Source: Allocoleopsis franciscana PCC 7113
GTDB lineage: Bacteria > Cyanobacteriota > Cyanobacteriia > Cyanobacteriales > Coleofasciculaceae
Length of the DNA stretch: 64,000 nt
Direction: 5' to 3'
Assembly: GCF_000317515.1 (NCBI RefSeq)
Contig: NC_019738.1
Location: 4,614,001-4,678,000 of the forward strand
The translations under genes and the position numbers were made by a program. This document shows, piece after piece, positions 41,540-62,120 of the stretch. The stretch's first letter is position 1; each line of letters opens with the position of its first letter. The notes under the pieces were generated by a model, which made no database searches, was not told the DNA's origin, and was given only the letters and a program-made list of their open reading frames with translations.

Positions 41540-44383
41540 TTAACCGACTTTGAACTGACCCACTTCTGTTTCTAGGGCTTTCGCTACTTTTAGGAGTTGC
41601 TCAAAGGAAGAGGATACAAACGTGGCTTCTTGGGAGGTTTTTTCCGCGATCGCGGCGACGTTGGTCATGGTTTGAGTCACGGCTTGGGAGGCTTGGGACT
41701 GAACAACGGTGGCTTGGGTAATGGATGCAACCAAGTCGCTAATCTTGGAACTAACGGTGGTAATTTTGTTCAGACTCTGGCGGGTTTCATCCACGAGTTT
41801 GGTTCCCATCACAACCTGCTCAGTACCTGCTTCCATGGCAGCAACCACCTCATTAGTTTCCCCTTGAATCGCAGCCACGAGTTTTTCAATTTCGCTGGTG
41901 GCTTCTGCTGATTGCCGTGCGAGCGATCGCACTTCATCCGCAACCACCGCGAAGCCTCGTCCTTCTTCCCCGGCGCGTGCCGCCTCAATACTGGCGTTCA
42001 ACGCTAGCAGGTTCGTCTGTGCGGCGAAGGTACTAATCAGGTTAACGACGGTAGAAATCTTTTGGGACGATTCACCTAAGTGTTTGACTTTTTTGGCTGT
42101 TTCTGCCACTGTTTCTCGAATTGCCAGAATCCCGTCTACTGTACGGTTCATGGCTTGGTCACCTTCTTCCACCGTTTGAGAGGCTTCGACCACAGCGGCT
42201 AAGGCTTCTTCTGCGTTGCCCGCCACCAATTGCACCGATTGCGCCATTTCTTGTGCTCGATCTAGAGCCAGTGCAATTTCCTCGGCTTGGCGTAAGGCTT
42301 CCGTCGATAGTGATTGAATCGAGGCTTCATTACTACTGGTCGTTTGAGCCACCTGACTGGCGGCTTGTTGCACTTGAAGCACGATTTTCCGCAAGTTACC
42401 TACTGTAGCGTTGTAGGAGTCAGCGATTGTACCAATTTCATCCGCTGTTACCTTTGCCCGGATAGTCAGATCCCCTTTACTAATCGGGTCTACTTCCTGG
42501 AGCAAGTCTAGAGCACGTCGCTGTAAGCCTTCTTTGAGTTGGCGCTGCTCTTGAGCCAGTTGTTCCGTTTGTTCAAGTAGGAGTACACGGTCGAGGGACA
42601 GACCCATCTGAGCCGCTAATTGCTGGAGGAAGTTGATCTCCGAGGATTGCCAAGTATGGGCAGTTTCGCAGTGGTGAGCCATCAGCAACGCATAAGGCCG
42701 ACCTTCATTGAGAATCGGGACTTCCACACTGGCTCTGATTTCCAGACGTTCCATTACTCTCAACTGCTCTGGCGCAAGATTGGCGTTGAGGATGTTATTT
42801 ATGGGCTGAATACTACCCTCGATATACGCTTCGAGTTGCTGCTCTGATACAAAAGAGTGATCAATTTTGGTAATCAGGGCACTGGGCCAACCTCTTGCCA
42901 CCGATTCAGATACGATTTCCCCATCCCCATTGGGGTTGAAGCGATAAATCACAATGCGATCAACGTTCAGGCTTTTACGGGCATCATCCACAACTTCACC
43001 GAAGAGATTATTCAATTCCTGCGAACTTAGAGCACGAGAACCCGTCACTTTGGTGAGTAGGAAGGCTCGTTCAGCAGCGAGTGTTTGTTCTTGCACAAAC
43101 GTCTGTAGCTGTTCCGCCATCACGTTAATGTTCGATCCCAGTTCGGCAATTTCATCTTCCCCTTGAATTTCTAGGCGGGTTTCCAGTTCTCCCTGACCAA
43201 TTTTGTCCACCGCGCCTGCCGCCGAGAGAATGGGACGTACCGTGCGGTTGGTGACGAAAATCGCGATCGCACTCACCAAGACGGCTGTGATTAAAGTACC
43301 AAGCGATACGGCTAGAAGTAATTGTCTCTGGGGTTCAAATGCAAGTCTTGTTGGCTGTGCAATAATGACTTGCCAGGGCAAATCAGGTAAGCCTTCTAGT
43401 TTTGTAAACTTGGTAAAGCCGAACAATTTCTCAACCTTCTCCGCCTGATCGTTAAAGATTAAAGTATTAGGTTTGTCAGCAGCTTGCAGTTTAGATAAGC
43501 CTGGGAAAATGGGCAGAGGCTCTTTAAATTCCTTACTTTTCTGCGAACCCAGAAAAATTTTGTTGATCGCGGTGTCAATCACATAATATTCGTCTCCACT
43601 TGCAGCGAAGTTTTTGCTCAACTCATCTAGACTTTCAACTGGCAAACGGGCGCGGACAATGGCAATTGTTTTACCCGTAACGCTATCTTTTACAGGTGCT
43701 GCAATGTTAATCGCAGGTCTTTCAGGATTTGCAGAAACCCTAGGTATGATCGCACTAGTAATGACGGGTTTATCTGTTTTAAGAACGTCTTGAAAATATT
43801 CCCGATCACTTTGATTGGGTAAAGGATCGCTTTTAGATTTGAGAATGACATTGCCCTTCAAATCACTTACAGAAATAAGGTCATAGGTTTTATAATTTTC
43901 GACGATTTCGTCTAAAGATGCTTCTTTTTCCTCAACAGAAATTTTGTCTCTAAACTCAGCTTTAGTGAGAAAGTTACGCCGAGATATAACTTGAATATCC
44001 CCATAACGTTCCCGCATGAAGCGTTTGAGCTTATCTTCCAAACCAGCAGCACGGTCTAATTTGACCGTAGCAATTTGTTCCGTAAACCCTCGGTTTGCAA
44101 AATAATAGCCAATTCCACCCGTTACTAGCACTGGGATAGTACCAAGACTAATAGCCAATATTGCGGCTTTGGTTCGCAGGCTGCTCCATTGAAAACCGTG
44201 GCGTTTACGGTCTGAGAAAGGCGCTTTGGGAATCAGTAATCCAGGCTCACTTATACCCGTGTTATGAACTGGAAGCGCATGATTACCAGCCGTTCCACCT
44301 TCAAGCTGAAGAGTCTTAGAAGAGGGCATACGACCGTTTCCGTTCGTGTCATTTTTAGAAGAATTAGGAGAAATCTGAGTCAT
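41540..44383 (-). CDS. hmpD: Methyl-accepting chemotaxis protein, PilJ/HmpD type
   Basis: A polar N-terminal arm precedes a first membrane segment ([21 protein letters not shown]), a periplasmic Cache-like sensor ([12 protein letters not shown] to [16 protein letters not shown]), a second segment ([20 protein letters not shown]), a HAMP, a GAF domain (about 460-620), a second HAMP and the methyl-accepting signalling helix pair with [20 protein letters not shown] and [15 protein letters not shown]. The GAF has no obvious bilin Cys. It would signal to HmpE via HmpC. ATG at 44383 with GAGGTG six bases upstream is preferred. A 150-bp gap with no gene separates it from hmpC. Confidence 0.93.
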
Positions 44384-44563
44384 GGAACACACCTCGTCAA
44401 ATATAGGGGGTTTTTGCGGTTAGACGGACTAAAAAGACATGCAAATCCAAAGCTCTATTTGAGCTAGATCCGAAGAAAATATTGGGCTAGATTTTAGATA
44501 AAAAACCTAATCTAGAATGACCCTATTTCGTTATTTATTCATCATTCCTCATTTTTGTTAAGT

Positions 44564-45112
44564 TCATTTAGGCATCGATCCGATAATGGCTTGACCATCT
44601 ATGACAACTAGCATTTCACCGTTCGGTTTCAACCAGTAACCCCGTAAAAATGGAGCGAGTTCAGGGGTAACCGTGGACGCTGGCGGGGATTGAATCCAAT
44701 CAGGGTTACACAACTCAATATCTTCTACACGATTCACCACAACGCCTAACATTTGGCTTTTCAATTTATTCGGCGCGGACTGATTGGAATGAGCTTGGAG
44801 TACAATTGCTCGATAAATTGAACTACTATTCGCTTGTCGATGCCAGGGAGTAAGTCCTACTAAATGACCTAAATCTATCATCCAAAGAATTTCCCCGCGC
44901 CAATTGTAGACACCCATTACCCAGGCAGGCATGTGAAAAATCGGTACAATTTGCCCATTAGGAATTGTCAGTACTTCAGTCAGTTGTTCCATCGGCAATA
45001 AGGCAGTTGTATTGGGCATCAGATGAAACCGCAAAAACTGCTGACTGGCTTTTGAGGAAGCTGTTTCTGTAGGTAATAATAGAGAATCTGGAACGGCTAA
45101 GGAATCAGACAT
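44564..45112 (-). CDS. hmpC: CheW-like adaptor protein
   Basis: A CheW fold in 182 residues: QFLRFHLMPNTTALLPMEQL, PAWVMGVYNWRGEILWMIDL (the characteristic GVxNxRGxIxxxxDL), and SQMLGVVVNRVEDIELC. It couples the receptor (next gene downstream, hmpD) to the CheA kinase. Order and content match hmpC of Nostoc punctiforme and pilI of Synechocystis. Upstream, 45113-45480 holds no gene but one hairpin (45256-45279). Confidence 0.9.
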   Translation of the reverse strand: MSDSLAVPDSLLLPTETASSKASQQFLRFHLMPNTTALLPMEQLTEVLTIPNGQIVPIFHMPAWVMGVYNWRGEILWMIDLGHLVGLTPWHRQANSSSIYRAIVLQAHSNQSAPNKLKSQMLGVVVNRVEDIELCNPDWIQSPPASTVTPELAPFLRGYWLKPNGEMLVVIDGQAIIGSMPK

Positions 45113-45255
45113 TAATCCAAGCGGGGGTTAGCGGAGCGAGACAACATTCAAGACGGAGCAAAATTTTGGGTTAAGGAATAATACGAAGTCGCGGCCTGGA
45201 AAGGTTAGGCAAGGTCAATCCTGTTGATACCTGTAGATGCCGAACCTACCGAAGA

Positions 45256-45279
45256 GAGAGGGTATTTTATTTCCCTCTC
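45256..45279 (-). other. Hairpin between hmpB and hmpC
   Basis: GAGAGGG and CCCTCTC form a 7-bp stem with a 10-base AT loop. It may be a processing or partial termination site inside the operon. The rest of 45113-45480 holds simple ATTAG-like repeats only. Confidence 0.4.
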
Positions 45280-45480
45280 CCCCTTCATTGCTGGGTTAAA
45301 GTAGAAGGTTACCCAAAATTAATCCATATTGTTCAATAAAATTTTTGTAGTTTCTTAGCTTTCCATCATTAGTGATTAAGTGATTAGGAGTTAGGGCACG
45401 CTTTCACATTTATCATCACCAATGACTTATGACTCATCACTACCAATTAGAGAACAGAGGAATGATTTCGAGGTGATACT

Positions 45481-45846
45481 TTAGCTCTTGATTAGTTGTT
45501 TAACGGTGCGGACGAATTCGTCTTGATCGACCGGCTTAGCTAAATAAGCATCTGCTCCCTGTTTCATTCCCCAAAATTTATCCATTTCGCCTCCTTTCGT
45601 CGAACAAATCACAATGGGGATGTTGCTGGTAGCAGCGGCAGCTTTGATTTCACGACAGACTTCAAATCCACTAGAGCCTGGTAAGACCACATCTAGAATG
45701 ATGATGTCTGGCTTCTGGTTATTCAGTTTAGCGAGAGCTTCTTCTCCACTGTTAGCGGTCACAACATTGAGACCTCCTTGCTGTAAACAGCGGCTCAGAA
45801 TTTGCATATCGGTCATGGAATCGTCAACAACTAGAGCTGTACTCAT
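45481..45846 (-). CDS. hmpB: CheY/PilH-type response regulator
   Basis: A single receiver of 121 residues: ALVVDDSMTDMQILSRCL with the acidic pair, acceptor Asp in DIIILDVVLPGSSGFEV, Thr/Ser switch in IVICSTKGGEMD and Lys in AYLAKPVDQDEF. It accepts phosphate from HmpE and sets pilus motor activity or direction. ATG at 45846 (MSTALVVDD) has GAGGA upstream and is better than the start at 45870. It lies directly after hmpA. Confidence 0.92.
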   Translation of the reverse strand: MSTALVVDDSMTDMQILSRCLQQGGLNVVTANSGEEALAKLNNQKPDIIILDVVLPGSSGFEVCREIKAAAATSNIPIVICSTKGGEMDKFWGMKQGADAYLAKPVDQDEFVRTVKQLIKS

Positions 45847-45937
45847 GATAGTTTCCTCAGTAAATAACAACAGAAATTAAGAAAAGATGACTGGCAGGTT
45901 AGTCGGTTGGATGTTCAACTTTAAAAGATTCAACGTT

Positions 45938-47152
45938 CTAACCTTCACCCTTTAACCTCGGATCACCCTGTTTTAAGTGCTTGCGTAGTACGCCTAGCAC
46001 TATCCCAGCATCTATTGGTTTGCTGAGAAAATCTGATGCGCCAACAAGCTTTGCTCTCACCCGATCAACGATGCCACCATTGCCCGTCAAAATTACGATC
46101 GGTGTATCTCGGAAACAAGAAAGCTTGCGTAATTGAGCGCAAATTTCATACCCATTGGCATTCGGCATGACTAAATCTAAAAAGATTAAATCTGGCTTAC
46201 GGGCTAACAGGATTGCGAACGCCCGCATCGCATCATCCACGCCTAAAAACCGATAGCCGGATGCCACAAGTAGGGATTCCATGGTTTGCCGAACCAAAGG
46301 ACTGTCATCGACACAGGCAATTAGTGACCCTGTGGATTCTGCTGACGGAAGCGGCGTTTCAGGAATCGGGGTATCAACCGGACTGGGCAGATCTGAGATG
46401 CTAATCAGTTCCACTAACTCCCATTGAATGTAGGGTAGGAGTGAACGGGTGACTTGCACAATATCTTGCTTCATCTGCACGGCTAGGTCACGCAAAGTGC
46501 GTTGCCCATTCAGCAATTGTGTCAGATTTTGATAAGCCGCTTGTGATGTCCGCTGGCGCAGTTCTTCCGGCTTTTTGATGATGGGTGCAGCGTTGGGAGA
46601 ATAGTCGGCAATGGTCGGATTACGCCAAACGCGCCAATAGGGCTGAACTTGTGCGATCGCTTCCTGTATATCAATCAATACGAGGGGCTTTGGTAACAAG
46701 TCATCTTGATTAATTTGATAAATGACGCGCATCGCTTGCACGAGATCAAACAGAACCTCTGCAATCACTGAGCGAATTATCTTAGTCGCTTGCTCACTCG
46801 TGATTTTTTGCTGTGTGACCCATAAACTTAGCAGTTGATATTCCCAGGACAGTCCAGAATCTGTAGCCTTAAGATTCGTCAGATCGCGCTGTAGCGTTGG
46901 GCGATAACTCAACCACTGAGGACAGTGAGCATCTAAATTTCTTTGCCACCGTCTGACGGGATGAGTTCCCCCTGTCGCATACATAATGTGACCCAGGTAC
47001 AAATAAAAAACCCATTGTTCTTCTTTGGAACTGGTGAACACGAGTTGACCGCTAAACCGCAGCCGCTTCAAAGTTTCCAGGAATTGGATTTGCTTCCCAG
47101 CACTAAATAAGCTAGCCGAGGCAAGAGGAGGAGATTGTTGAACATTTCTCAC
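45938..47152 (-). CDS. hmpA: PatA-type response regulator (PatA N-domain + receiver)
   Basis: Residues about 10-250 follow the PatA/DUF4388-like N-terminal domain (FLETLKRLRFSGQLVFTS, EEQWVFYLYLGHIMYATGG), and residues about 275-395 form a receiver (SLIACVDDSPLVRQTMESLL, acceptor in DLIFLDLVMPNANGYE, Lys in DFLSKPID). In Nostoc punctiforme the first gene of the hmp locus encodes such a protein; PilG/PatA relatives control motility and heterocyst patterning. The start is GTG at 47152, with GGGAGAAT well placed ahead of it. It is the first gene of the operon and follows a 1-kb region without genes. Confidence 0.88.
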   Translation of the reverse strand: MRNVQQSPPLASASLFSAGKQIQFLETLKRLRFSGQLVFTSSKEEQWVFYLYLGHIMYATGGTHPVRRWQRNLDAHCPQWLSYRPTLQRDLTNLKATDSGLSWEYQLLSLWVTQQKITSEQATKIIRSVIAEVLFDLVQAMRVIYQINQDDLLPKPLVLIDIQEAIAQVQPYWRVWRNPTIADYSPNAAPIIKKPEELRQRTSQAAYQNLTQLLNGQRTLRDLAVQMKQDIVQVTRSLLPYIQWELVELISISDLPSPVDTPIPETPLPSAESTGSLIACVDDSPLVRQTMESLLVASGYRFLGVDDAMRAFAILLARKPDLIFLDLVMPNANGYEICAQLRKLSCFRDTPIVILTGNGGIVDRVRAKLVGASDFLSKPIDAGIVLGVLRKHLKQGDPRLKGEG

Positions 47153-48165: not shown

Positions 48166-49719
48166 ATGGTTCGTACCCCTACTTTAGCGTTCGATCGGGG
48201 CACCCTAATTTTGCATCCACCGCCACGGGGGAAAACCTGGGTGGATTATGCGACTTGGGATGACCGAGTGGAGAAGTTTCGCATCCCTGCTATGCACTAT
48301 CGCCAACTGGTGGAAGCCTTGCAAGCGGAAGGGACTGACTTTAACGATGAGGCTAAGGAATTTTCTCCCTTAGAATTGGTTCCCAGCTTTGAGATGGAAC
48401 CTTATCCTCATCAGACAGAAGCGCTTTTCGCGTGGAAGCAAGCAGGGCGTCGAGGGGTGGTGGTGCTTCCCACCGCCGCCGGGAAAACCTATTTGGCGCA
48501 ACTGGCGATGCAGGCAACGCCCCGCACCACATTGATTGTGGTGCCAACCCTAGATTTGATGCACCAGTGGTATGCTCACTTAACCGCCGCTTTTCCGGAT
48601 GCAGAGGTGGGATTATTGGGGGGCGGTTCGCGGGATAGAACCCCGATTCTGATTTCCACTTACGACAGTGCCACCATCCATGCTGAATCATTGGGCAATC
48701 AGTATGCCATGCTGGTTTTTGATGAGTGTCACCACTTACCCACTGACTTCTACCGAGTAATTGCGGAATATGCGATCGCACCTTACCGTTTAGGACTCAC
48801 TGCCACTCCCGATCGCTCCGATGGGCGTCATGGGGACTTGAAGGGCTTGATTGGGCCAGAAGTCTATCGTAAATCCCCAGAGGACTTGGCGGGGTTTGCC
48901 TTGGCGGAACACAAGTTAGTACAGATTAAAGTGAAGCTGTCCCCAAAAGAGCGCGATCGCTATAATACCTGCATCAAACTCCGCAATGAGTTTTTAAGGG
49001 AGTCGAAGATTTCCTTGGGCAGTTTGGAGGGTTGGCAAAAGTTTGTCATGGCGAGTGCGCGATCGCAAACGGGACGCAGAGCCATGTTAGCGCATCGGGA
49101 AGCCAAAGAAATTGCTTCGGGTACCGATGGCAAACTCAGGATTCTCACTGACTTACTGGCTCAACATTACCCAGAACGGATTCTGGTCTTCACTAACGAT
49201 AACGCTACCGTCTACCGCATTTCCCAAGACTTGCTGATTCCAGCGATTACCCATCAAACGCCGGTCAAGGAACGCCATGAAATCCTCACTCGTTTTCGGG
49301 AGGGGGAGTACAAAACCTTGGTAGCATCCCACGTTCTCAATGAAGGGGTAGATGTCCCAGATGCTCGTGTGGCAATCATATTATCGGGTACAGGTTCCAG
49401 TCGGGAATATATTCAGCGCTTGGGTCGAGTATTACGTAAGGGTTCTGAGGGACATAAACTAGCGCTGCTTTATGAAGTTGTGGCAGAAGATACCAGTGAG
49501 GAAGGGACATCTCAACGTCGGCATGGTTCCGAAGGGAAGAAGGAACCACAAAGGCACAAAGAACACCGAGTCATTGAGAAGCCGAAGAAACCGAAGTTAA
49601 AGCAGGAACAGTTAGAAATTTTTCCGTCTCAACCCATTTACGGGGTGAATCAAAACCAGACTCCGAAAGCGGCTGAGTCACCTGCGAAGTGGGGAGAGGA
49701 TGAGACACCGGAATTCTAA
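48166..49719 (+). CDS. XPB/Ssl2-like DNA repair helicase
   Basis: An SF2 DNA translocase. Residues about 1-75 form a damage-recognition-like N-domain (LAFDRGTLILHPPP). Motif Q/I is YPHQTEALFAW and LPTAAGKTYLA, motif II is DECHH, motif III LTATPDRSDG, and motifs V/VI are SHVLNEGVDVPDARV and QRLGRVLRKG. A thumb-like insert (KVKLSPKERDRY) and an RED-like stretch are compatible with XPB. In archaea XPB pairs with the Bax1 nuclease; a Bax1-like gene is at 13616. The last ~75 residues are Lys/Gln-rich and disordered, which is extra compared with the core family. A role in excision repair is inferred. Confidence 0.9.
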   Translation: MVRTPTLAFDRGTLILHPPPRGKTWVDYATWDDRVEKFRIPAMHYRQLVEALQAEGTDFNDEAKEFSPLELVPSFEMEPYPHQTEALFAWKQAGRRGVVVLPTAAGKTYLAQLAMQATPRTTLIVVPTLDLMHQWYAHLTAAFPDAEVGLLGGGSRDRTPILISTYDSATIHAESLGNQYAMLVFDECHHLPTDFYRVIAEYAIAPYRLGLTATPDRSDGRHGDLKGLIGPEVYRKSPEDLAGFALAEHKLVQIKVKLSPKERDRYNTCIKLRNEFLRESKISLGSLEGWQKFVMASARSQTGRRAMLAHREAKEIASGTDGKLRILTDLLAQHYPERILVFTNDNATVYRISQDLLIPAITHQTPVKERHEILTRFREGEYKTLVASHVLNEGVDVPDARVAIILSGTGSSREYIQRLGRVLRKGSEGHKLALLYEVVAEDTSEEGTSQRRHGSEGKKEPQRHKEHRVIEKPKKPKLKQEQLEIFPSQPIYGVNQNQTPKAAESPAKWGEDETPEF

Positions 49720-50033: not shown

Positions 50034-53000
50034 TTAGCGGTAGCGCTTCACAAAGTAATCATTGTTTAGCACAGATTCACGTTGACGAATCAGCAGTTGA
50101 GTAGACTCTTCGTCTTCGCTGTCGCTGTAATCGTTGCGTACATCCTTCAGTCCTAAGTAAGAGAAGTAGGCACCCAGCAATCTGGAATCAATGCGCGGAC
50201 AGGTGATAGACGTTCCCACCAATCCAGCCAAGGTATTTTGAGCATCAAATCCCTGAAAAACCAAAGCCGCTGTCTCTAGATAACTTTCTTGACTTCCGGT
50301 TTTCCATTCGGTAAACAAAAACAACAAGGGACTTAGAGCATTATCCGATTGAGAACTTGCCGCCTGAAGCAATTGGGCTTGCCACTGGGGATAATTTGTC
50401 CACTCCATAGGGTAGCCGATTGCCTGGATTTCATCCACCATCTCCCGTAAGGGCAAGGCATGAGGACTTACCAAATGAAAGGCTTGCCCCAAAGAGGCAG
50501 ACTGTAGCGATAAATGGACAATCGCTTGGCTGACATAATCTACAGGAGTCAGACTCATATTTAAGTCTAAATCCGGCGCACTGCCCAGTTGAGCCAAACC
50601 TTTGATCAGTCGGCAGACGAGGTCATTGGTTTGAGAAGCGCCCGTTTTGCTATCTCCAGTAATCATACCGGGTCTGTAGATACAAGTCGGAATGCCTCTG
50701 GCATGAGCCGCCTTCATTAACTTTTCACCCACCCATTTGCTCTGGGCATATCCATCAGCGAGACTTTCACCGTAGGCGAGGTCATCGTCTTCAAAGATAG
50801 CCTCCATCTCACCATACTCAGGAGATTGGAAGACATCCAAGGTCGAGATGAAATGAACGGGTTTGACTTTGATTTGGCTGGCTAACTTCAGAATTTCCTT
50901 CGTACCCAGCACATTTGCCGCTCGCAAGGCAGAGTAGGGATAGATTAAATTAACGAACGCCCCATTGTGATAAATCAGGTCAATCTCAGCCGCTAACTCG
51001 CCAAACTGCTGCTCACCGATGCCCAAGCGGGGTTGAGATAAATCCCCAACCACTGGCACAACCCGATTTTCTAGCTTGTCATCGGCAAGTAAATAGCGTT
51101 TCAGATTTCTTTTGAGCTTCTGCTTGGCGTCTTCAAGGTTGGCGGAACGAACTAAACAATAAATGGTGGCTGAGGTTTGTTGCAGCAGTTCGTGCAATAA
51201 AAACGCACCCAGAAAACCCGTTGCGCCGGTTAAGAAAATCCGTTGAGGCTCAATTCCAGAGTCAACAAAGGGAACTTCTGGGATAATAGACGGTTCCAAG
51301 ATGGCATCCGCCTGCATCTGTGCAACTGGCGTAGTCCCCCGTGTCGAGGCACATTCGGGAGCTGATGTGGTGTCACTCGCACAGTGTTGTTGTAAGAGAA
51401 TCGCCTCCGCCAGTGCAGCAACTGTGGGAGATTCAAACAACGTTGCTAAAGGTAACTCGACTTGGAACGTTTCTTTGATCTGAGACAGTAACTGAGCAGT
51501 AAGTAGAGAATGTCCCCCCAGTTCAAAGAAGTTATCATGAATACCCACTTGCTCCAGCCCCAAAACCTTTGTCCACATTTGGACTAATTGAGCTTCTACT
51601 GGGGATTGAGGAGCAACAAAGGCTTCTTCCAACAAAGACCGCGTTTGGTTTGGTGCCGGTAGTGCCTTGCGATCCACCTTACAGTTGGGGGTTAAGGGCA
51701 GGGCATCCAGCATCACGAAGGCAGAGGGCACCATATACTCAGGGAGTTTCTCTTTCAGGAAAGAGCGCAAGTGGGAAACGGATAATCCCTGGGTTTCGAT
51801 GATATATTCCATGCCTTGATGAATTTGAGCCTGTTGAGTTGGTATGCTCTCAAACTCAATCCCCGCATCCTCTCCATCATGCCAAACCACTCTTCCGTTT
51901 AAGCAAAGCTCGTTTGGAACTCCGGGCAGTTGTAACTGTAAGTGGAGACGTTGCCCTGCTTGCCAGATTTCGGGGATAGGGGCAACCAAGCGGATACCCC
52001 CACGACCAATATTTTGGGTGATTAACTCTAGGGTGTCACCCGACTCCAATTCCACAAAACAAGTGGTTTGTAGGGGTACGCGAGACTCGACACGGCGCAA
52101 ATCGCTCACCTCAAATCCATCGGTTTGGATGATCTGCTTAATGCTTTGGCGCAGAATCGCTTCTTCACTCGGTGTCGTCTTAAATAGAATTCCGGCAAGC
52201 ACCTTCTGCCGCCAAGCGAGGGTTCCTTCCAGGGTGAGTTCGCCTTGAACTCCAGGCAATGGTAAGTGGAGAAGCAGGCGCTGTCCTTCTATCCAGTCGG
52301 CTGGCACATTCACCACACAGATGCCACTGGCGGAGAGATCGACGGTGGTAAGTATTACATCCGAGTGATTGTCCCACTCCACCCGACAATGACTCTGAAA
52401 CGGTACTCGCTCTAAGCTGAGGTCAGCTACGAGATAGGCAACCAGACGCTTGTCTCCTGGCTTGTCTTCTCGTGCAATCACTACGCTTTCTTGTACGGCG
52501 GCGTGTTGCCTCAATACCGACTCAATCTCTCCCAACTCAATGCGGAAGCCCCGAATCTTCACCTGATGGTCAATCCGACCTAGACATTCCAGGGTGCCGT
52601 CGGGTAAGTAACGTGCTAAATCACCAGTGCGGTAGAGACGAGCTCCCGGTTCCTGGCTAAAGGGGTCAGGTATAAATTTCTCATCCGTCAGTTCCGGTCG
52701 GTTGAGGTAACCCCGTGCCAAACCAACTCCACCAATTAGTAATTCTCCCGGTTCTCCTATGGGGACGAGTTTAAGGGGGTCATCCTTTCCGTTTACATCC
52801 AGGTCTACGATATAAATTTGGGTATTGGCGATCGGACGACCAATCGGAATTGGGTTGTTTCCAGGCTCGACTTGATGAACCGCAGACCAAATGGTCGTTT
52901 CCGTCGGACCGTACATATTCCAAACCGAGCCACTCCTCGAACGGAGTTGATCTGCCAAGTCGCGAGACATGGCTTCCCCACCACAGAGAATTTTGAGTGT

Positions 53001-53927
53001 AGAAGAACCCTGCCAACCGGCTGAAATTAGCATTCGCCAAGTAGCGGGGGTGGCTTGGATCACAGTGGCATCGGATTGAGCCAGTGCTTCAATCAACTGG
53101 ACGGCATCTGAGGCGACTTGTCTGGTTACCAAAACAATCTGAGCACCGACAGCTAGGGGTAAGTAGAGTTCTAGCGCCGCAATATCGAAGGAGATTGTGG
53201 TAACAGCAAGTAAGATATCTTGATCGCTCAATCCAGGCGCTTGGCTCATGGATGCGAGAAAATTTACCACCCCACGATGGAGAACCTGCACCCCTTTGGG
53301 CTTACCAGTAGAGCCGGATGTGTAGATGGTATAAGCCAAGTGGTCTGGGGTGACCCCACTATCGGGGTTTTCTTCACTGTGTTGAGCGATGTTCTGCCAC
53401 TCGGTTTCCAGGCACACTACCTTGATGGGAGGAAGGGATTGTTCTGGGATTTGATCGTATGCAGTTCGGGCGATCGCTATGCTCTGCTCACGCAGGTTAT
53501 CAGCTAAGGCGAGGCTATCAGTCAACAGTACGGGAAGTTGGGAATCTTCGATCATCAATGCCAATCGATCCGGAGGGTAGCCTGGATCGAGGGGTACATA
53601 GCTACCACCGGCTTTGAGAATGCCCAGAAGTCCAATCACCATTTCTAGCGATCGCTCCATGGCAATTCCCACTAATACTTCCGGTCCCACTTCCAGTGTT
53701 TGCAAGTAGTGGGCTAACTGATTGGCACGGCGATTCAGTTCCTGGTAAGTGAGCTCTTGGTCTGCAAAAATAACTGCAATTTTCTCCGGGTTCCGCGCTA
53801 CCTGAGACTCAAGCAAATGATGAATACATTGATGGGTGGGATAGTCAACTTGTGTGTTATTCCATTCCTGAAGTAATTGCTGCAATTGAACCTGATTTTT
53901 CGGTAATAGATGCTCTGCCTGAGTCAT
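50034..53927 (-). CDS. NRPS-like A-(PilZ-PilZ)-PCP-thioester reductase
   Basis: Numbering here is from the TTG at 53942; ATG at 53927, with GGAG nine bases upstream, is the likely start. Residues 35-500 are an adenylation domain (YTIYTSGSTGKPKGV, NMYGPTETTIW, YRTGDLARYLPDG, GRIDHQVKIRGFRIELGEIE). Two PilZ-like domains are inserted at about 507-723, before the A10 motif LPLTPNCKVDRKAL: the first has VDLSASG, the second RVESR plus NIGRGG. A carrier domain (FFELGGHSLL) and a reductase (FLTGATGFLG near 905, YAQSKW) follow. The specificity residues read D-I-L-Q-L-G-M-I-W-K, one change from the glycine code. Predicted: activates an amino acid, probably glycine, and releases it reductively as an aldehyde or alcohol; c-di-GMP control is inferred. 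Confidence 0.9.
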   Translation of the reverse strand: MTQAEHLLPKNQVQLQQLLQEWNNTQVDYPTHQCIHHLLESQVARNPEKIAVIFADQELTYQELNRRANQLAHYLQTLEVGPEVLVGIAMERSLEMVIGLLGILKAGGSYVPLDPGYPPDRLALMIEDSQLPVLLTDSLALADNLREQSIAIARTAYDQIPEQSLPPIKVVCLETEWQNIAQHSEENPDSGVTPDHLAYTIYTSGSTGKPKGVQVLHRGVVNFLASMSQAPGLSDQDILLAVTTISFDIAALELYLPLAVGAQIVLVTRQVASDAVQLIEALAQSDATVIQATPATWRMLISAGWQGSSTLKILCGGEAMSRDLADQLRSRSGSVWNMYGPTETTIWSAVHQVEPGNNPIPIGRPIANTQIYIVDLDVNGKDDPLKLVPIGEPGELLIGGVGLARGYLNRPELTDEKFIPDPFSQEPGARLYRTGDLARYLPDGTLECLGRIDHQVKIRGFRIELGEIESVLRQHAAVQESVVIAREDKPGDKRLVAYLVADLSLERVPFQSHCRVEWDNHSDVILTTVDLSASGICVVNVPADWIEGQRLLLHLPLPGVQGELTLEGTLAWRQKVLAGILFKTTPSEEAILRQSIKQIIQTDGFEVSDLRRVESRVPLQTTCFVELESGDTLELITQNIGRGGIRLVAPIPEIWQAGQRLHLQLQLPGVPNELCLNGRVVWHDGEDAGIEFESIPTQQAQIHQGMEYIIETQGLSVSHLRSFLKEKLPEYMVPSAFVMLDALPLTPNCKVDRKALPAPNQTRSLLEEAFVAPQSPVEAQLVQMWTKVLGLEQVGIHDNFFELGGHSLLTAQLLSQIKETFQVELPLATLFESPTVAALAEAILLQQHCASDTTSAPECASTRGTTPVAQMQADAILEPSIIPEVPFVDSGIEPQRIFLTGATGFLGAFLLHELLQQTSATIYCLVRSANLEDAKQKLKRNLKRYLLADDKLENRVVPVVGDLSQPRLGIGEQQFGELAAEIDLIYHNGAFVNLIYPYSALRAANVLGTKEILKLASQIKVKPVHFISTLDVFQSPEYGEMEAIFEDDDLAYGESLADGYAQSKWVGEKLMKAAHARGIPTCIYRPGMITGDSKTGASQTNDLVCRLIKGLAQLGSAPDLDLNMSLTPVDYVSQAIVHLSLQSASLGQAFHLVSPHALPLREMVDEIQAIGYPMEWTNYPQWQAQLLQAASSQSDNALSPLLFLFTEWKTGSQESYLETAALVFQGFDAQNTLAGLVGTSITCPRIDSRLLGAYFSYLGLKDVRNDYSDSEDEESTQLLIRQRESVLNNDYFVKRYR

Positions 53928-55027: not shown

Positions 55028-56485
55028 TCACTCTAGAACCTTTGCACCCATCAACGCACTCGCTTCTTCCGGGGCCTGAGCGACTAATCGATTTTTGCTA
55101 TATAAAAAGTAGTAAACAGTCGCCCCGACCAGAGCGATCGCAAGACCCAAAAGACCGGGTTGGTAGTCAGGCACAAAGCTACAAGCCACCAAAGCAAAAA
55201 GAGCGAGGCTTGCTCCAACACCCGCCCCCACAGTTCCCAATGGGCTTTTGTACGGTCTGGGTAAATCAGGCCGACTGCCCTTGAGCTTAATATAGCTAAG
55301 CATGACGAGGACATAGGAAATCAAGGCTCCAAACACAGCCGTATTCAACAGCACCGCATCGACTGACTTGTTACCTCTGTCAATCAAGATGACAAAGATT
55401 AAACCGACAACTGTACCGAGAATTAATGCCCTTTTGGGAGTAAACTCTCGACCCGTAACCGACAGCGAGTCTGGTATATATCCGGCACGGGAAAGGGAGA
55501 AGAGGATGCGTCCGTAGGCGTAAATTTGTGTCGGCAAGCTAGCCGCTAAGCCAAGAGTGAGAGAAAGCGCTGTAACAATACTACTAGTAGATCCCTTGCC
55601 AAAGTAAGCCTCCAACCCATCTCCTAGGGGTATATCTGATTTACCAATCACCTCCGCGCCACCCCCGATACCAGAGTTCAGCACCAGGGTACAAACAGAA
55701 AGAACAATCAGGGTAAACATCCCAGATATCAGTGCAGTAGGCATATTTCTACGCACATTATCGGTTTCTTCGCTAGCCAGTGGCAGCATTTCAATCGCCA
55801 GGTAAAACCAGATGGCATAAGGCAAGGCAGCAAAAACCCCCTGCCAGCCTTTCGGTAACCAAGTAGCTGATTGTCCGGGATTGGCCGGAATGTTGAACAG
55901 GAGTTCTGAGTTGAAAACACCAGCCCCCAGCATACTCAAATAGAACGTGAATAACACCATGATCGCTAACAGCGTCAGGAAAAGACTCACATTCAACGTC
56001 AGTTCCAGGCTGTGGATGGTGACCGCCATGAAAATGGAATAGGCGATCAACCACACCATAAAACTGGGTACAAAAGGAATCAAGGGCTTGATGTAGTTGC
56101 TCATACTGTAGACCAGTGCAGCCGTCGCCAGTACATACTCAAGAGTGACCACTACACCGCAAATAAAGCCCCAAAAAGGTCCAAAGGCGTTGCGAGTGAA
56201 CGAGTACAAACCCCCGGAATGGGGGAGTGCGGTGGAAAGTTCCGCGAGAGAGAAGACCATGCACAGATACATGATCGCCATTAAGAAGGTAGCAATCGCT
56301 AATCCCCAGAATCCACCTGCCGCTAAACCATAGTTCCAACCATAGAAATCACCGGAGATGACAGCGCCAACCCCTAAACCCCATAACAGGAAGGGGCTAG
56401 CACTTCCTCTGAGTTGCCGCCGCCGGAGATAACTCTCATTTACACTTCTGTAAGACATCATCCCTTCAGGCTTTTGCATAGACAT
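55028..56485 (-). CDS. eat: Ethanolamine permease-family APC transporter
   Basis: A 485-residue APC-superfamily permease with about twelve hydrophobic segments. The N-terminal part (LLWGLGVGAVISGDFYGWNY, LCMVFSLAELSTALPHSGG, RNAFGPFWGFICG) closely resembles the Eat ethanolamine permease family rather than general amino-acid permeases. It would import ethanolamine or a related small amine across the plasma membrane. The start is ATG at 56485 after GAGAGGAAGGA. It lies downstream of, and on the same strand as, no close gene; the NRPS-like reductase is 1.1 kb away on the same strand. The substrate is inferred from family resemblance only. Confidence 0.82.
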   Translation of the reverse strand: MSMQKPEGMMSYRSVNESYLRRRQLRGSASPFLLWGLGVGAVISGDFYGWNYGLAAGGFWGLAIATFLMAIMYLCMVFSLAELSTALPHSGGLYSFTRNAFGPFWGFICGVVVTLEYVLATAALVYSMSNYIKPLIPFVPSFMVWLIAYSIFMAVTIHSLELTLNVSLFLTLLAIMVLFTFYLSMLGAGVFNSELLFNIPANPGQSATWLPKGWQGVFAALPYAIWFYLAIEMLPLASEETDNVRRNMPTALISGMFTLIVLSVCTLVLNSGIGGGAEVIGKSDIPLGDGLEAYFGKGSTSSIVTALSLTLGLAASLPTQIYAYGRILFSLSRAGYIPDSLSVTGREFTPKRALILGTVVGLIFVILIDRGNKSVDAVLLNTAVFGALISYVLVMLSYIKLKGSRPDLPRPYKSPLGTVGAGVGASLALFALVACSFVPDYQPGLLGLAIALVGATVYYFLYSKNRLVAQAPEEASALMGAKVLE

Positions 56486-56834: not shown

Positions 56835-59800
56835 TTACCAAGGATTACCAATCATCGTGAAAGCACTCCAGTAGTAAGGATGGGACAATTCGCTATTTCC
56901 TAGAGAAGCTAGAGTTGGCGGTAAGGGGAAACGACCCGTGCTTATGATCAGGTTTCCTTCCTGCAATCGTACCTCTCCTTTGAGCATCGCTAATTGAGTT
57001 CGCCGTAGGGCTTCGGCTTTAATTGGAGCCTGTTTCAATTGGTCGTAAAATTCAGCCATTAAGCCCAATGTTCCTTGGTCACTGACATACCACAAACTCC
57101 CCAAAACCGACTTCACCCCAGCTTGCACGGCTAACCCCGCAAATCCCAGTTCTATCTGTTCATCCCCTAAAGCCGTGCGACATGCACTTAAAACTAATAG
57201 TTCTACAGGCGGTTTCTTCAATACAAGTTGTCGTAATTGATCGAGGTGCAGTTGGCTATTCCAAAATTGAATATAGGACTTTCTGGGATGACTGATTTTA
57301 AACTCAGCATGGGTGGCTAAATGGATAATGCCATAGGAGGCTTCCTGACGAGCCGCTTTAAGATTTTCCAGAGTAAAAGAGTCATTGAGGTAAGATTTTC
57401 CCGACCATAACTTGCCGACAATCGTCGATAATTCCACAGGTACAGCGGGTAAGGGGCTTTGCCCCACAAATTGTGAAGCCCCCATAGCTAGAACCGAGGT
57501 ATTCTTCACACTGACATAGCGAGTATCGGTGAGCGAAAGACTGGGCATTAAGCCGACGCTATATCGTTCGATGATAAAATTTTGACCATCGTGAAGCGCT
57601 GCTAAAGGGATGCTGCGTAATCCGGTGTCCATGATGTAAACCAGATTCTTGATGTTCCGCTGTTGTAAATCTTTTTCAAGAGGAGCTGTTAGCCATCGAT
57701 ACATCTGTTGAGCCGGAACAAGGAAGCCTGAACGGTTAGTGCGATCGCTCACTTGGCTGCGAAATTCCTGCGCCATTTGGGCAACTTCAGCTCTCGTTGC
57801 ATTCACGGAGCGGCGAATGGGATTTCCTTGAGCCGTGATCAGAATCAGTTCCAAGCGCTCTTGCTGCCAAGAGGCAGCGCTAACGTTAGCGTCAGGCGTC
57901 AGGGAACGTAACAAATGGGACTGAATTTCTTCTACCCCAGCGCTTCTGTTTTCTCGCTCTGTAGTGGGGACTGGGGTAATCGTCGAGGGAACAAACACCG
58001 CATAGATCAGCGCGGGTTTAATACCCGTGGCACTCTCAACTTGGCGTAGTAGGTTACGCGCTTGGGAGAGAGTAACGGGACGAGTCTTACCCAATCCCAG
58101 CCCTTGGGCAAACTCGTCGCTCAAGGATTGATCAATCGGCAAAGCCCCTAAGTCATTATCGGGCAGCAGTGGAAGTTTCTCTAGCTCTGCTTGTACTAGA
58201 AGCTGCCCAATCGGATTGATGGTTTGTTTAGAAGTAGGAGGAGTGGAGGGTGGTTGAACAGGAGTGAGGAATGGAGTCGATACCGTGGGAACGGGAGTCG
58301 GTAAAACAGCAGGTGGATTCGGTAAAACAGCAGGTGGAGTTGGTAAAACAGCAGGTGGAGTCGGCAAAATAGCGGGTGGAGTCGGCAAAATAGCGGGTGG
58401 GTTAACACTAATAATCCGAATATTGCCTTGCGTATAGGTGAAGGGAAAGGAGGCAAGCGGCGCAATGGTGAACTCGCCACTCGTCAGTGTTCCCGCTGTA
58501 CCGTTCACGGTGGCATTCCCCACATCAAAGGGAATAATTCCCCCGCCTCCATGTCGAATGGTGATATCACCGCCACGATTCCCGCCTAGGGTAGAAATAC
58601 TAACCAATTCCCCATTGGCAGCCTTAAAGGTACTGGTGGCTCTGAATAGACTGTCGGTGGTGATATCCACACTACCCCCCTGGGTACCTCCCTGGGCATT
58701 AATTGAACTCACTTGAACAGCACCGGAAGGGACAAAGAGGACATTGCCACCTTGTCCAAATGCCCCACTAGTATTGATTTGACCCGCTGTAATTTGAGTC
58801 TGGGCGTTCAGCGTGATGTTGCCACCATCGGTCAGTCCCGATGCGTTGAGGTTTCCGGTGGTAATGGCTCCGTTATCACTTTTCAGGGTAATATTCCCAC
58901 CTTGAGTGGTAGAAGAGCTGGAGTTCAGTGTCCCCGCACTCGTATTAATATTGCCCAAGAAACTGGTTAGGGTAATGGCTCGACCCGGATTGATGATATC
59001 GCCCGTGGTAATGCCTTGGTTAGCGAACAGGCTAATTGTGGCGTTGTTCGTTCCCGTTAAGGTAAACCCGCTGGTGTTGATTGAACCGTTGCCAACGGGC
59101 GATCGCAAGATCACTGGGGCATTAAATGTCGTATTCCCAGCTAAGATAATCGCACCACTCCCCGATGCACTGCCGATGGTGATACTGTTAAACCCAGGCT
59201 GTAAGGCGGCGAGATCACGAGCGATTAAATCCAACGTAGTCAAGCTAGTATCGACACTCCCTCCCAGTACGATCGCGCGATCGGGAGTAAATGGCTGAAG
59301 TATTAAATTGCCCGTTCCCGACACCGCTTGGAGAAAGTCAATGCCGTTGGCATTCAAGGTAAGATTATTTATCCCGGCGGCTAGAATGCTGTTAAATACC
59401 AGCCATCTAGGAGTATTAATCGTAGTGTTGCCAATCAGGGTGACGGGATTGTTGAATCTGTAGCCATTGAGAAAGGTATAGTCGCCAGCTAGCTGAATCA
59501 GCCCAGTGCTATTCAGGGTTAAGTTGCCTAGGGGTACACGCTGACCAATCCCATTAAAAGTAATGGTGCCATTGCCGGAATTTACAATTAAGTTTTGCGC
59601 CCCAGTTGTCGTCCCATCCAGTGAGCCATTGAAAGTGATGTTGCCGTTAGATGCTGGCCCGGTTGAATTCAGGGTAACCGTGGGCTGATTGAGGGTGACA
59701 TTGCCCGTCAAGTTGATACTGCCACCGCTTTGGCTACGGCTGGAAGTATTGATGGTGCTGCCACTGAAGCTAATATTGCCACTACCCGCATTTAGGGTTA

Positions 59801-62120
59801 CATTAGCACCGTTGCCGCTGCTGCCCTGATTCGCTTGAGAACTTGCGTTAATCCCAACAGCACCACTAATGCTAATATCACCACCTGCATTCAGGGCGAT
59901 CGCTCCGGCATTACCCGCGTTGCCCGAAATTGCACCCCCCAGTGCTTGGCTGACAATTCCCTCGAAAGGCGTATTGACACGAATATTGCCCTGAGGAGCA
60001 TTGATCGTCAGATTCCCAGCATTACCCGCATCCCCAATTCCATTCAAATTATCCACCAGTGCGGGCAGGAACAGCAGATTGGTGGTAATGTCGCCCTCTG
60101 TAGTTGTCAGACTGATATTCCCCGCATTACCCGTCCTTAAGCCAAAACCATTGGTTTGAGAGCGAGTATCGATCACATCAGCCGCAATGCCCTTACCCGC
60201 ATTCAAAATCACGTTCCCGCCATTACCGGGAGAAGCCGTAGAGTTCCTTGATGTCTGCGAGTCAGCTTCAATCGTCCCCGTGATGTTAATCAGCCCAGAG
60301 GCGTTGACCGTAATATTACCACCATTGCCAGAGCTACCCGTTGGCGGTTCAGAGTCAGCCCTGAGACTTACGGCATTGACATCGCCATTGGTGGCAGTGA
60401 TGTTGATATTACCCGCAGGGTTGCCCACCCCATCATTGGTGAAAGTGGCGATGGTTCCAGCGGTAACACTCGCGCCGGAAATCGTGATATTTCTCCCCGC
60501 TGCTGTGATGGATTGGGTTTGATCCATCGAAAAAGACCCAACTTGATTGTTATCAGCATCGGCCTTCAACGTAATTGTCCCACCCGGACTGGCAAAGTTG
60601 AGTGACAAACCAGGGGCGATAGTAATGTTATTCGTTGCCTCTAGAATAATATTGCCCGTCTGAGCGGCAAGGACACCAGCGGAGAGGGTGAAGTCCACCG
60701 CCCCCCCATCATCCGCGAATATTGCCCCAGCAGGGTCGTTGGCATTCGGAACATTGGCGTTGAGTTGGTTATCGTTGGCACCGGTAGGGACAATGGTGAT
60801 ATTGGTTGGGTCGAACAGAATTGTGCCACTTACCCCTTGAGTTGCACCCACATCCACCTGTCCCTGAAATGCCAAATCTTGCTTACCCGAAATTTCGACA
60901 AAGCCCCCATTCCCGGAATGGGCACCGCCACGGGCTGTCACCTGACCGGCAAAACCGGTTAATTGGTCTGCCCAGGCGATCACACGACCGCCATTGCCGT
61001 GAAGTAAGGCATCAGCCTGGATGCTGGAATCAGCACTGATGAAGGTGCGAGAGGCATTGGGTACAGTGCCTAACCCTTGGAAATCACCGCCAACTCTCAC
61101 GGTGCCACCTCCATGAGTGCCAGAGGCGTTGAGGTTGGCACTGATCACACCAACTTTGTTACCGAAAACATTGATCGAACCACCCACTCCTGATGGTGAA
61201 CTCCCTTGGGTTACAGGGGATGAAGTATTGAGGGTACCAGACGCGATCGCACTGCCCAAGTCTGTTGGAATAGTTGTCCCAGAATGGCTTAGCTGTACTG
61301 CGCCTGTTGGGGAAACACTCAGTCCTGTCTCTAGGCTTGCTGGTACTCCCGTGAGTAGAGTGGGTAAATTGAGAGGTGTAATTGAGAGTAACTGCCCAGC
61401 CTGATTTCTAGGTGCTTCAATCTCCAAACTCAGCAAATGTCCAGTTTGGCTAATCCGAACCCGATTTTCACCGGGGACAGCGGCAAGTGTAATCGTTCCA
61501 GATGGTGCCGTTAGTTGCCCGGTATTGATTACGGTGCCACCCAGTAAGGTTAAATGCTGTCTAGGGGAAACCGTGAGATTTCCTGCATTGATCACGCTTC
61601 CAGGTTGAACAGAGTCAAAGGCAAACTGACTGGGAGTACCGATTAAGCTGGGGTAATCATTCCCGCCCACAGCGTTAAACCAATTCTTCTCACTAAATCC
61701 AATACCCGTAGCTGTAGTCGCGATGAAGTCAGAGGGTACATTCAAACTTGCCTGAACACCAAAAACAATCCCGGCTGGGTTGAGCAAATATAAGTTAGAA
61801 TTTCCTCCCGTGACTTGAATTAGACCATTAATGATAGAAGGGTTACCTCCGACAACCCGCCCCAGAATATTCTGAATAGAAGGTTGTGAGAGAAAATTAG
61901 CAATCTGACCTTCTTGGAGTCCAAATTGCTCAAAACTGTGGAAAAGATTGCTCCCATCTTGAGAAAGGGAACCGCCCTGGATATTCAATTGATTCTCGTC
62001 AGGAGTGATAATGGTGCCAGTCCCATCGCCTGCGGACACAATCCCTTGGGCGTGCAGGGTCTTTTCAGAGACAGCAGCAGTCCAGCCGAATACGGCAAGT
62101 GTTACGAGAACTTTTTTCAT
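56835..62120 (-). CDS. Giant secreted TPS haemagglutinin-type protein with C-terminal CHAT protease
   Basis: Signal peptide [17 protein letters not shown] ends near residue 25. The two-partner-secretion domain follows ([56 protein letters not shown]). Residues about 290-1230 are long beta-helix-like repeats rich in Asn, Gly, Thr and Ser, typical of adhesins. A Pro-rich 7-residue repeat (58297-58401) joins them to a CHAT domain: [20 protein letters not shown], His in IIHLATHAE (about 1602), Cys in [12 protein letters not shown] (about 1647). It shares the whole plan with the protein at 33320 but with a longer passenger. A cell-surface protease or proteolytically regulated adhesin is inferred. 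No TpsB gene is seen nearby. Confidence 0.9.
58297..58401 (-). repeat. Five tandem 21-bp units inside the second CHAT gene
   Basis: Units like GGTAAAACAGCAGGTGGAGT repeat every 21 bp and encode the heptad [14 protein letters not shown] linker. Copies differ at few positions, so expansion and contraction are plausible. Confidence 0.9.

Follow-up and report, generated by a model that had tools for sequence, protein, structure and literature searches.

Within the 64,000-nucleotide stretch of the Allocoleopsis franciscana PCC 7113 genome analyzed here (the window), one gene raises the question of whether amino acid activation by an adenylation (A) domain can be coupled directly to the second messenger c-di-GMP. 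The gene encodes an A-PCP-reductase whose A domain is interrupted by two PilZ domains. Here we report the domain organization and predicted fold of this enzyme, the distribution of the same insertion among cyanobacterial A domains, and the conservation of the c-di-GMP signature in single and tandem inserts, and we weigh ligand control of the enzyme against alternative roles of the insert.

Domain organization of the A-PCP-reductase

The enzyme, a stand-alone A-PCP-reductase of 1297 aa, is encoded by a minus-strand open reading frame with its ATG at position 53927 (Table 1). The thioester reductase model scores well above its cut-off (358.2 bits versus 213.35), and the domain has both the NAD(P)H motif and the YxxxK motif. 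As the A, PCP, and reductase motifs are all intact, the enzyme should be active, judging by its motifs. The A domain retains A1 to A10 apart from the interruption by the PilZ insert (residues 503-713), which follows A8 and precedes A9 (LPEYMVP). This places the insert in the C-terminal subdomain (Asub), at the site known for tailoring domains, where the original prediction had located it. That prediction was also right that the distance from A8 to A10 is enlarged, although its figures of about 215 residues against a usual 20-30 were not reproduced: the distance from the end of A8 to the start of A10 is 278 aa in the window enzyme versus 69-71 aa in most uninterrupted relatives, which corresponds to about 208 extra residues. 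In Pfam, the insert matches PilZ alone and no enzyme family, and so does not represent a tailoring-enzyme insert.

Table 1. Coordinates of the A-PCP-reductase gene, its domains and motifs, and the upstream permease gene in the window
Feature	Position	Strand	Residues	Evidence
A-PCP-R (NRPS-like reductase) gene	50034..53927	-	1297 aa	ORF and Pfam/NCBIfam domain calls
A-domain core (AMP-binding), glycine-type code DILQLGMIWK	52572..53813	-	39-408 (AMP-binding match)	Pfam 2.1e-89; code via GrsA alignment
A8 motif GRIDHQVKIRGFRIE, start of mobile Asub subdomain	52536..52580	-	450-464	Invariant alignment columns
PilZ unit 1; R2 (R507) and DLSASG kept, R1 absent (L503)	52116..52421	-	503-604	Pfam; AF2 barrel and helix; residue tally
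PilZ unit 2; complete RxxxR and NxGxxG	51789..52097	-	611-713	Pfam 51.1 bits; AF2; Foldseek/VIA to c-di-GMP receptors
RVESR (R612, R616), c-di-GMP signature arginines	52080..52094	-	612-616	Sequence motif
NIGRGG, c-di-GMP signature second half	51996..52013	-	639-644	Sequence motif
Remaining Asub: A9 (LPEYMVP) and A10 (PNCKVDR, catalytic Lys750)	51642..51779	-	A9 728-734; A10 747-753	Invariant columns; motifs
PCP (PP-binding; LGGHSL)	51399..51590	-	780-843; LGGHSL 803-808	Pfam 3e-17
Thioester reductase domain (TGATGFLG; YAQSK)	50148..51239	-	897-1260; TGATGFLG 900-907; YAQSK 1060-1064	TIGR01746 5.5e-107
APC permease, ethanolamine-permease-like, upstream of A-PCP-R	55028..56485	-		TIGR00908 373.8 bits, cut-off 381.75

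Two predicted PilZ barrels in the insert

The PilZ model (PF07238) matches the open reading frame with an E-value of 5.6e-21 and the insert searched alone with 3.7e-23, in two stretches. In a scan of the own genome both units exceed the cut-off of 22.5 bits, unit 1 with 34.6 bits and unit 2 by a wider margin (Table 1). The complete c-di-GMP signature, RxxxR followed by (D/N)x(S/A/G)xxG, is confined to unit 2, where R612VESR616 is combined with N639IGRGG644 and the loop has Gly at the position usually occupied by Ser. Unit 1 carries VDLSASG at residues 529-535 and has L503 in place of the first arginine (R1).

A static AlphaFold (AF2) model of the A-PilZ2-PCP part, built for the first 862 aa with an alignment of 48 A domains, has a mean pLDDT of 87; its A domain resembles solved A domains, and a pattern of six strands and a helix appears twice. 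The strands follow the PilZ order in both units, with unit 1 spanning residues 513-583 (strands) and 586-603 (helix) and unit 2 spanning 622-693 and 696-713. The insert modeled alone has a pLDDT of 83, and its nearest PDB folds in Foldseek are c-di-GMP receptors, namely PlzA with bound c-di-GMP (2.2e-9) and MotI/DgrA (4.5e-8), then MrkH, YcgR, BcsA, and VCA0042; VIA gave Z-scores of 13.8 for MotI and 13.2 for the PilZ domain of Alg44. Both units are thus confidently predicted to form the six-stranded barrel with a C-terminal helix seen in solved PilZ domains. The claims of two PilZ domains, of their fold, and of a full signature in the second one alone are borne out by these analyses, so that the original interpretation is supported in part. 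Elsewhere in the 7.97-Mb genome PilZ domains are found only in three BcsA-like proteins, giving five places with the two window units. The genome also encodes 11 GGDEF domains, and therefore c-di-GMP is very likely made in the host.

Probable substrate, product, and gene neighborhood

The specificity code DILQLGMIWK was extracted by alignment to a GrsA fragment, which gave its known code DAWTIAAICK. The window code has been reported for glycine-activating domains (PMC12283262). Since the enzyme has no C domain and ends with a reductase, it most likely loads glycine on the PCP and frees it by reduction, giving aminoacetaldehyde, perhaps further reduced to ethanolamine, a proposal that draws on the code and the gene neighborhood. 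For the upstream permease gene, the best model is TIGR00908, with the next model at 114.1 bits, and because the TIGR00908 score lies under the cut-off we call the protein ethanolamine-permease-like only. A role in ethanolamine catabolism was rejected, as a search of the genome for EutB found none.

Among the genomes of the host's family, the eight with a close PCP-R orthologue (at least 63%) are the same eight that have the permease, and the other 12 have neither (8/8 versus 0/12). A PCP-R search for insert-free paralogues gave matches of at most 54% outside these eight genomes. The permease gene also adjoins two insert-free relatives of the enzyme (L011 and L012), and the gene cassette is thus older than, or independent of, the PilZ insert.

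Other genes of the window include, on the opposite strand and adjoining the A-PCP-R gene, an XPB-like DNA repair helicase (48166-49719; 205 bits versus a cut-off of 610) and, downstream of the NRPS region, a putative chemotaxis-type cluster of a methyl-accepting protein, a CheW-like protein, and two response regulators (41540-47152). The region 56835-62120 encodes a protein of 1761 aa whose N-terminal domain is of the filamentous-haemagglutinin type (TIGR01901) and whose C-terminal part resembles CHAT on visual inspection.

Orthologues with an empty, occupied, or deleted site

The insertion site takes different states in the glycine-coded A-PCP-R enzymes. It is empty in L011 and L012, carries a methyltransferase-like insert in L010, L014, L016, and L061 (A8-A10 spacing of 484-507 aa), two PilZ units in the window enzyme, L006, L143, L144, and L145, and three in L007 and L008. 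In genome G521, a congener of two tandem carriers, the insert was deleted in frame (L169:6260-9388), leaving the scar LNVERIP-QSMDYLIETQG, in which the beginning of unit 1 runs directly into the last helix and a short IP is shared at the point of fusion. The enzyme can therefore be retained without the insert, and the insert-free, methyltransferase-bearing, and PilZ-deleted relatives together argue that the insert is dispensable and probably modulatory.

Distribution of PilZ insertions among cyanobacterial A domains

The insertion recurs in other cyanobacteria, and dozens of other genomes have it at this very site. A protein search of a phylum-wide sample found it in 10 of 386 genomes, and a profile of the insert with its flanks matched 53 of 389 genomes of the host's order, representing 34 of its 149 genera; four of the 53 matches are weak and cover the flank only (G479, G521, G602, G101), so the true count is about 49. 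PilZ was verified by Pfam in all 17 inserts sampled, and in all A domains examined its position is constant, starting about 50 aa after A8 and ending about 20 aa before A9. This recurrence, together with the E-values, excludes a chance origin. No match was found in plasmid records.

Carriers include multimodular NRPSs, in which the PilZ-bearing module often has neighboring modules whose insert at this site is the size of a methyltransferase. The 54 PilZ-bearing A domains have 32 different specificity codes, ruling out a link of PilZ to one substrate. In the tree of A-domain cores, at least nine changes of the PilZ state are required on well-supported branches. A single gain on this tree is thereby ruled out; it is likely that the insertion was gained several times, or that cores were exchanged while Asub stayed in place.

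Single and tandem inserts differ in the c-di-GMP signature

R1, which lies four residues before the second arginine (R2), is absent from all 50 distinct single inserts and from all 11 first units of tandems, so that unit 1 of the window enzyme shares its loss with 60 other first or single units; nearly all of these units retain R2 and D-x-S-x-x-G. By comparison, R1 is kept by 11 of the 13 units in second or third position of a tandem, spanning several families, the exceptions being L144 (His for R1) and L145 (both arginines lost). The difference in RxxxR between second or third units (11/13) and single or first units (0/61) has a Fisher P-value of 1.9e-11, which is overstated because the sequences are related. 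In a tree of the units, built from few columns, single, first, and second units fall largely into separate groups, the two main groups of tandem units having support values of 91 and 89, and with L103 and one unit of L007 misplaced. The separate grouping suggests that the tandem cassette is probably old and that its second unit kept the full signature throughout.

This retention is the main argument that the window insert may bind c-di-GMP and that the commoner single insert may not; on residue conservation, there is good reason to propose c-di-GMP sensing by tandem inserts, including that of the window enzyme, and sensing by single inserts is doubtful. The loss of R1 in all single and first units rules out that every inserted PilZ unit is a c-di-GMP sensor. 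PilZ insertion into A domains is therefore not in general a c-di-GMP switch, and the single inserts, the majority at this site, indicate that the site tolerates PilZ units with an incomplete signature.

In the alignment of single inserts with their flanks, a conserved LKxLQRT follows the last helix (columns 112-120). Its Arg might substitute for the missing R1, because the two ends of an inserted domain should sit close together. In modules of L107, L118, L127, L128, and L125, the Asub(PilZ) segment is apparently duplicated in tandem within one module, the second PilZ-A9 lying about 235 aa after the first. Two free-standing proteins, L152 (3513-frame, minus strand, 355 aa) and L153:3354+ (359 aa), resemble the remains of an NRPS Asub bearing two PilZ units; they lie outside any NRPS gene, are without A core or PCP, and have Arg for the A10 Lys, and a guanylate-kinase-like gene is found in their neighborhood. 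They are perhaps an exapted c-di-GMP module.

Proposed mechanism and alternative explanations

ANL enzymes switch between an adenylation and a thiolation state by rotation of Asub. The tandem PilZ cassette of the window enzyme sits in this mobile lobe, between A8 and A9, and its unit 2, with the RxxxR linker and the NxGxxG loop, most likely binds c-di-GMP, while unit 1 would be a degenerate barrel akin to the one at the N terminus of YcgR/MotI-type receptors. Once bound, the ligand would fix or alter the packing of both barrels on Asub, much as it changes the packing of YcgR-type receptors, and this would favor or block the rotation and could hold one of the two states, so that glycine activation would be coupled to c-di-GMP. 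We rate this complete reading, a glycine A-PCP-R with a tandem PilZ in Asub whose unit 2 binds c-di-GMP and couples it to activation, as evenly balanced between true and false.

Alternatively, the barrels could serve structure or protein docking and be free of ligand control; they would stabilize Asub or place the PCP, the reductase, or partner proteins, the motif of unit 2 being a relic. In favor of this, all 50 single inserts lack R1 and yet persist in A domains of about 30 specificity codes, some PilZ proteins are known that do not bind c-di-GMP (the PDB title of XC1028 speaks of "trivial c-di-GMP binding activity"), and R2 and DxSxxG may persist for folding. A relic would not explain, however, why R1 and R2 are retained together in second units of several families, and the top structural matches of the insert are bona fide c-di-GMP receptors; we consider a role of this kind rather unlikely.

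It is less probable still that the insert binds c-di-GMP but localizes the enzyme or recruits a partner, without controlling the motion of Asub. Several PilZ proteins, such as YcgR and MapZ, do work via partner proteins, and the MapZ-CheR complex is among the Foldseek matches of the insert model, but the insert is embedded within the catalytic subdomain rather than at a terminus, and the sole conserved neighbor found, the permease, also adjoins insert-free relatives. An assembly chimera, a frameshift artefact, or a misannotation can practically be dismissed: some of the relatives are MAGs, but the frame is open without stops and the same junctions recur in many genomes, including the single-contig assembly G382.

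Returning to control by c-di-GMP, we tentatively extend it, with somewhat less than even confidence, to a type of interrupted NRPS A domain that would be widespread in cyanobacteria and so far unreported, in which PilZ domains in Asub would make amino acid activation directly c-di-GMP-responsive. Tandem inserts would be the canonical sensors, and single inserts either modified sensors, maybe with the conserved C-terminal QRT Arg for R1, or structural derivatives. If true, this would provide a direct post-translational link from c-di-GMP, a biofilm and motility signal, to nonribosomal and perhaps natural-product enzymes, and a possible route to engineered switchable NRPS modules. We know of no earlier case in which a second messenger controls an A domain allosterically, and this would be the first. 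Since insert-free, methyltransferase-bearing, PilZ-bearing, and PilZ-deleted orthologues occur naturally, the idea is directly testable.

Comparison with known systems

The PilZ insertion in A domains appears to be undescribed. Reviews of interrupted A domains cover M, Ox, and KR inserts, and neither mentions PilZ (PMC11355689, PMC8949500); no report of PilZ in an NRPS A domain was found in open-access PMC papers, where a study of Microcystis PilZ proteins describes CelA and single-PilZ proteins only. In the interrupted A domains of TioS, KtzH, and McyA, the insert likewise separates a8 from a9, the A domain being intact otherwise, and close cyanobacterial A-PCP-R relatives carry a methyltransferase-like insert at the very site of the window's PilZ domains, with 480-507 aa from A8 to A10. 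The inserts known at this site are tailoring enzymes (a methyltransferase, oxidase, or ketoreductase), whereas the window enzyme has a non-catalytic, signaling-type insert with the fold of a second-messenger receptor. The order of A, PCP, and thioester reductase is that of the MxcG terminus and of L-aminoadipate reductase, and the window enzyme scores 669.6 bits with NRPS_MxcG and 604.7 bits with alpha_am_amid, both below the cut-off; it differs from them in that it consists of one glycine-coded module, has no C domain, and carries the PilZ insert.

The tandem PilZ receptors YcgR, MotI (DgrA), MrkH, and VCA0042 are among the best Foldseek matches of the insert, which shares the layout of the YcgR/MotI type, that is, a degenerate N-terminal PilZ-like barrel, an RxxxR linker, and a canonical PilZ domain. 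These receptors are free-standing, whereas the window tandem is nested inside an A domain. BcsA and Alg44 likewise have PilZ domains as part of a biosynthetic enzyme or complex, but there these domains regulate polysaccharide synthesis or secretion and no carrier-protein enzyme, while the PilZ tandem of the window belongs to an enzyme of the carrier-protein type.
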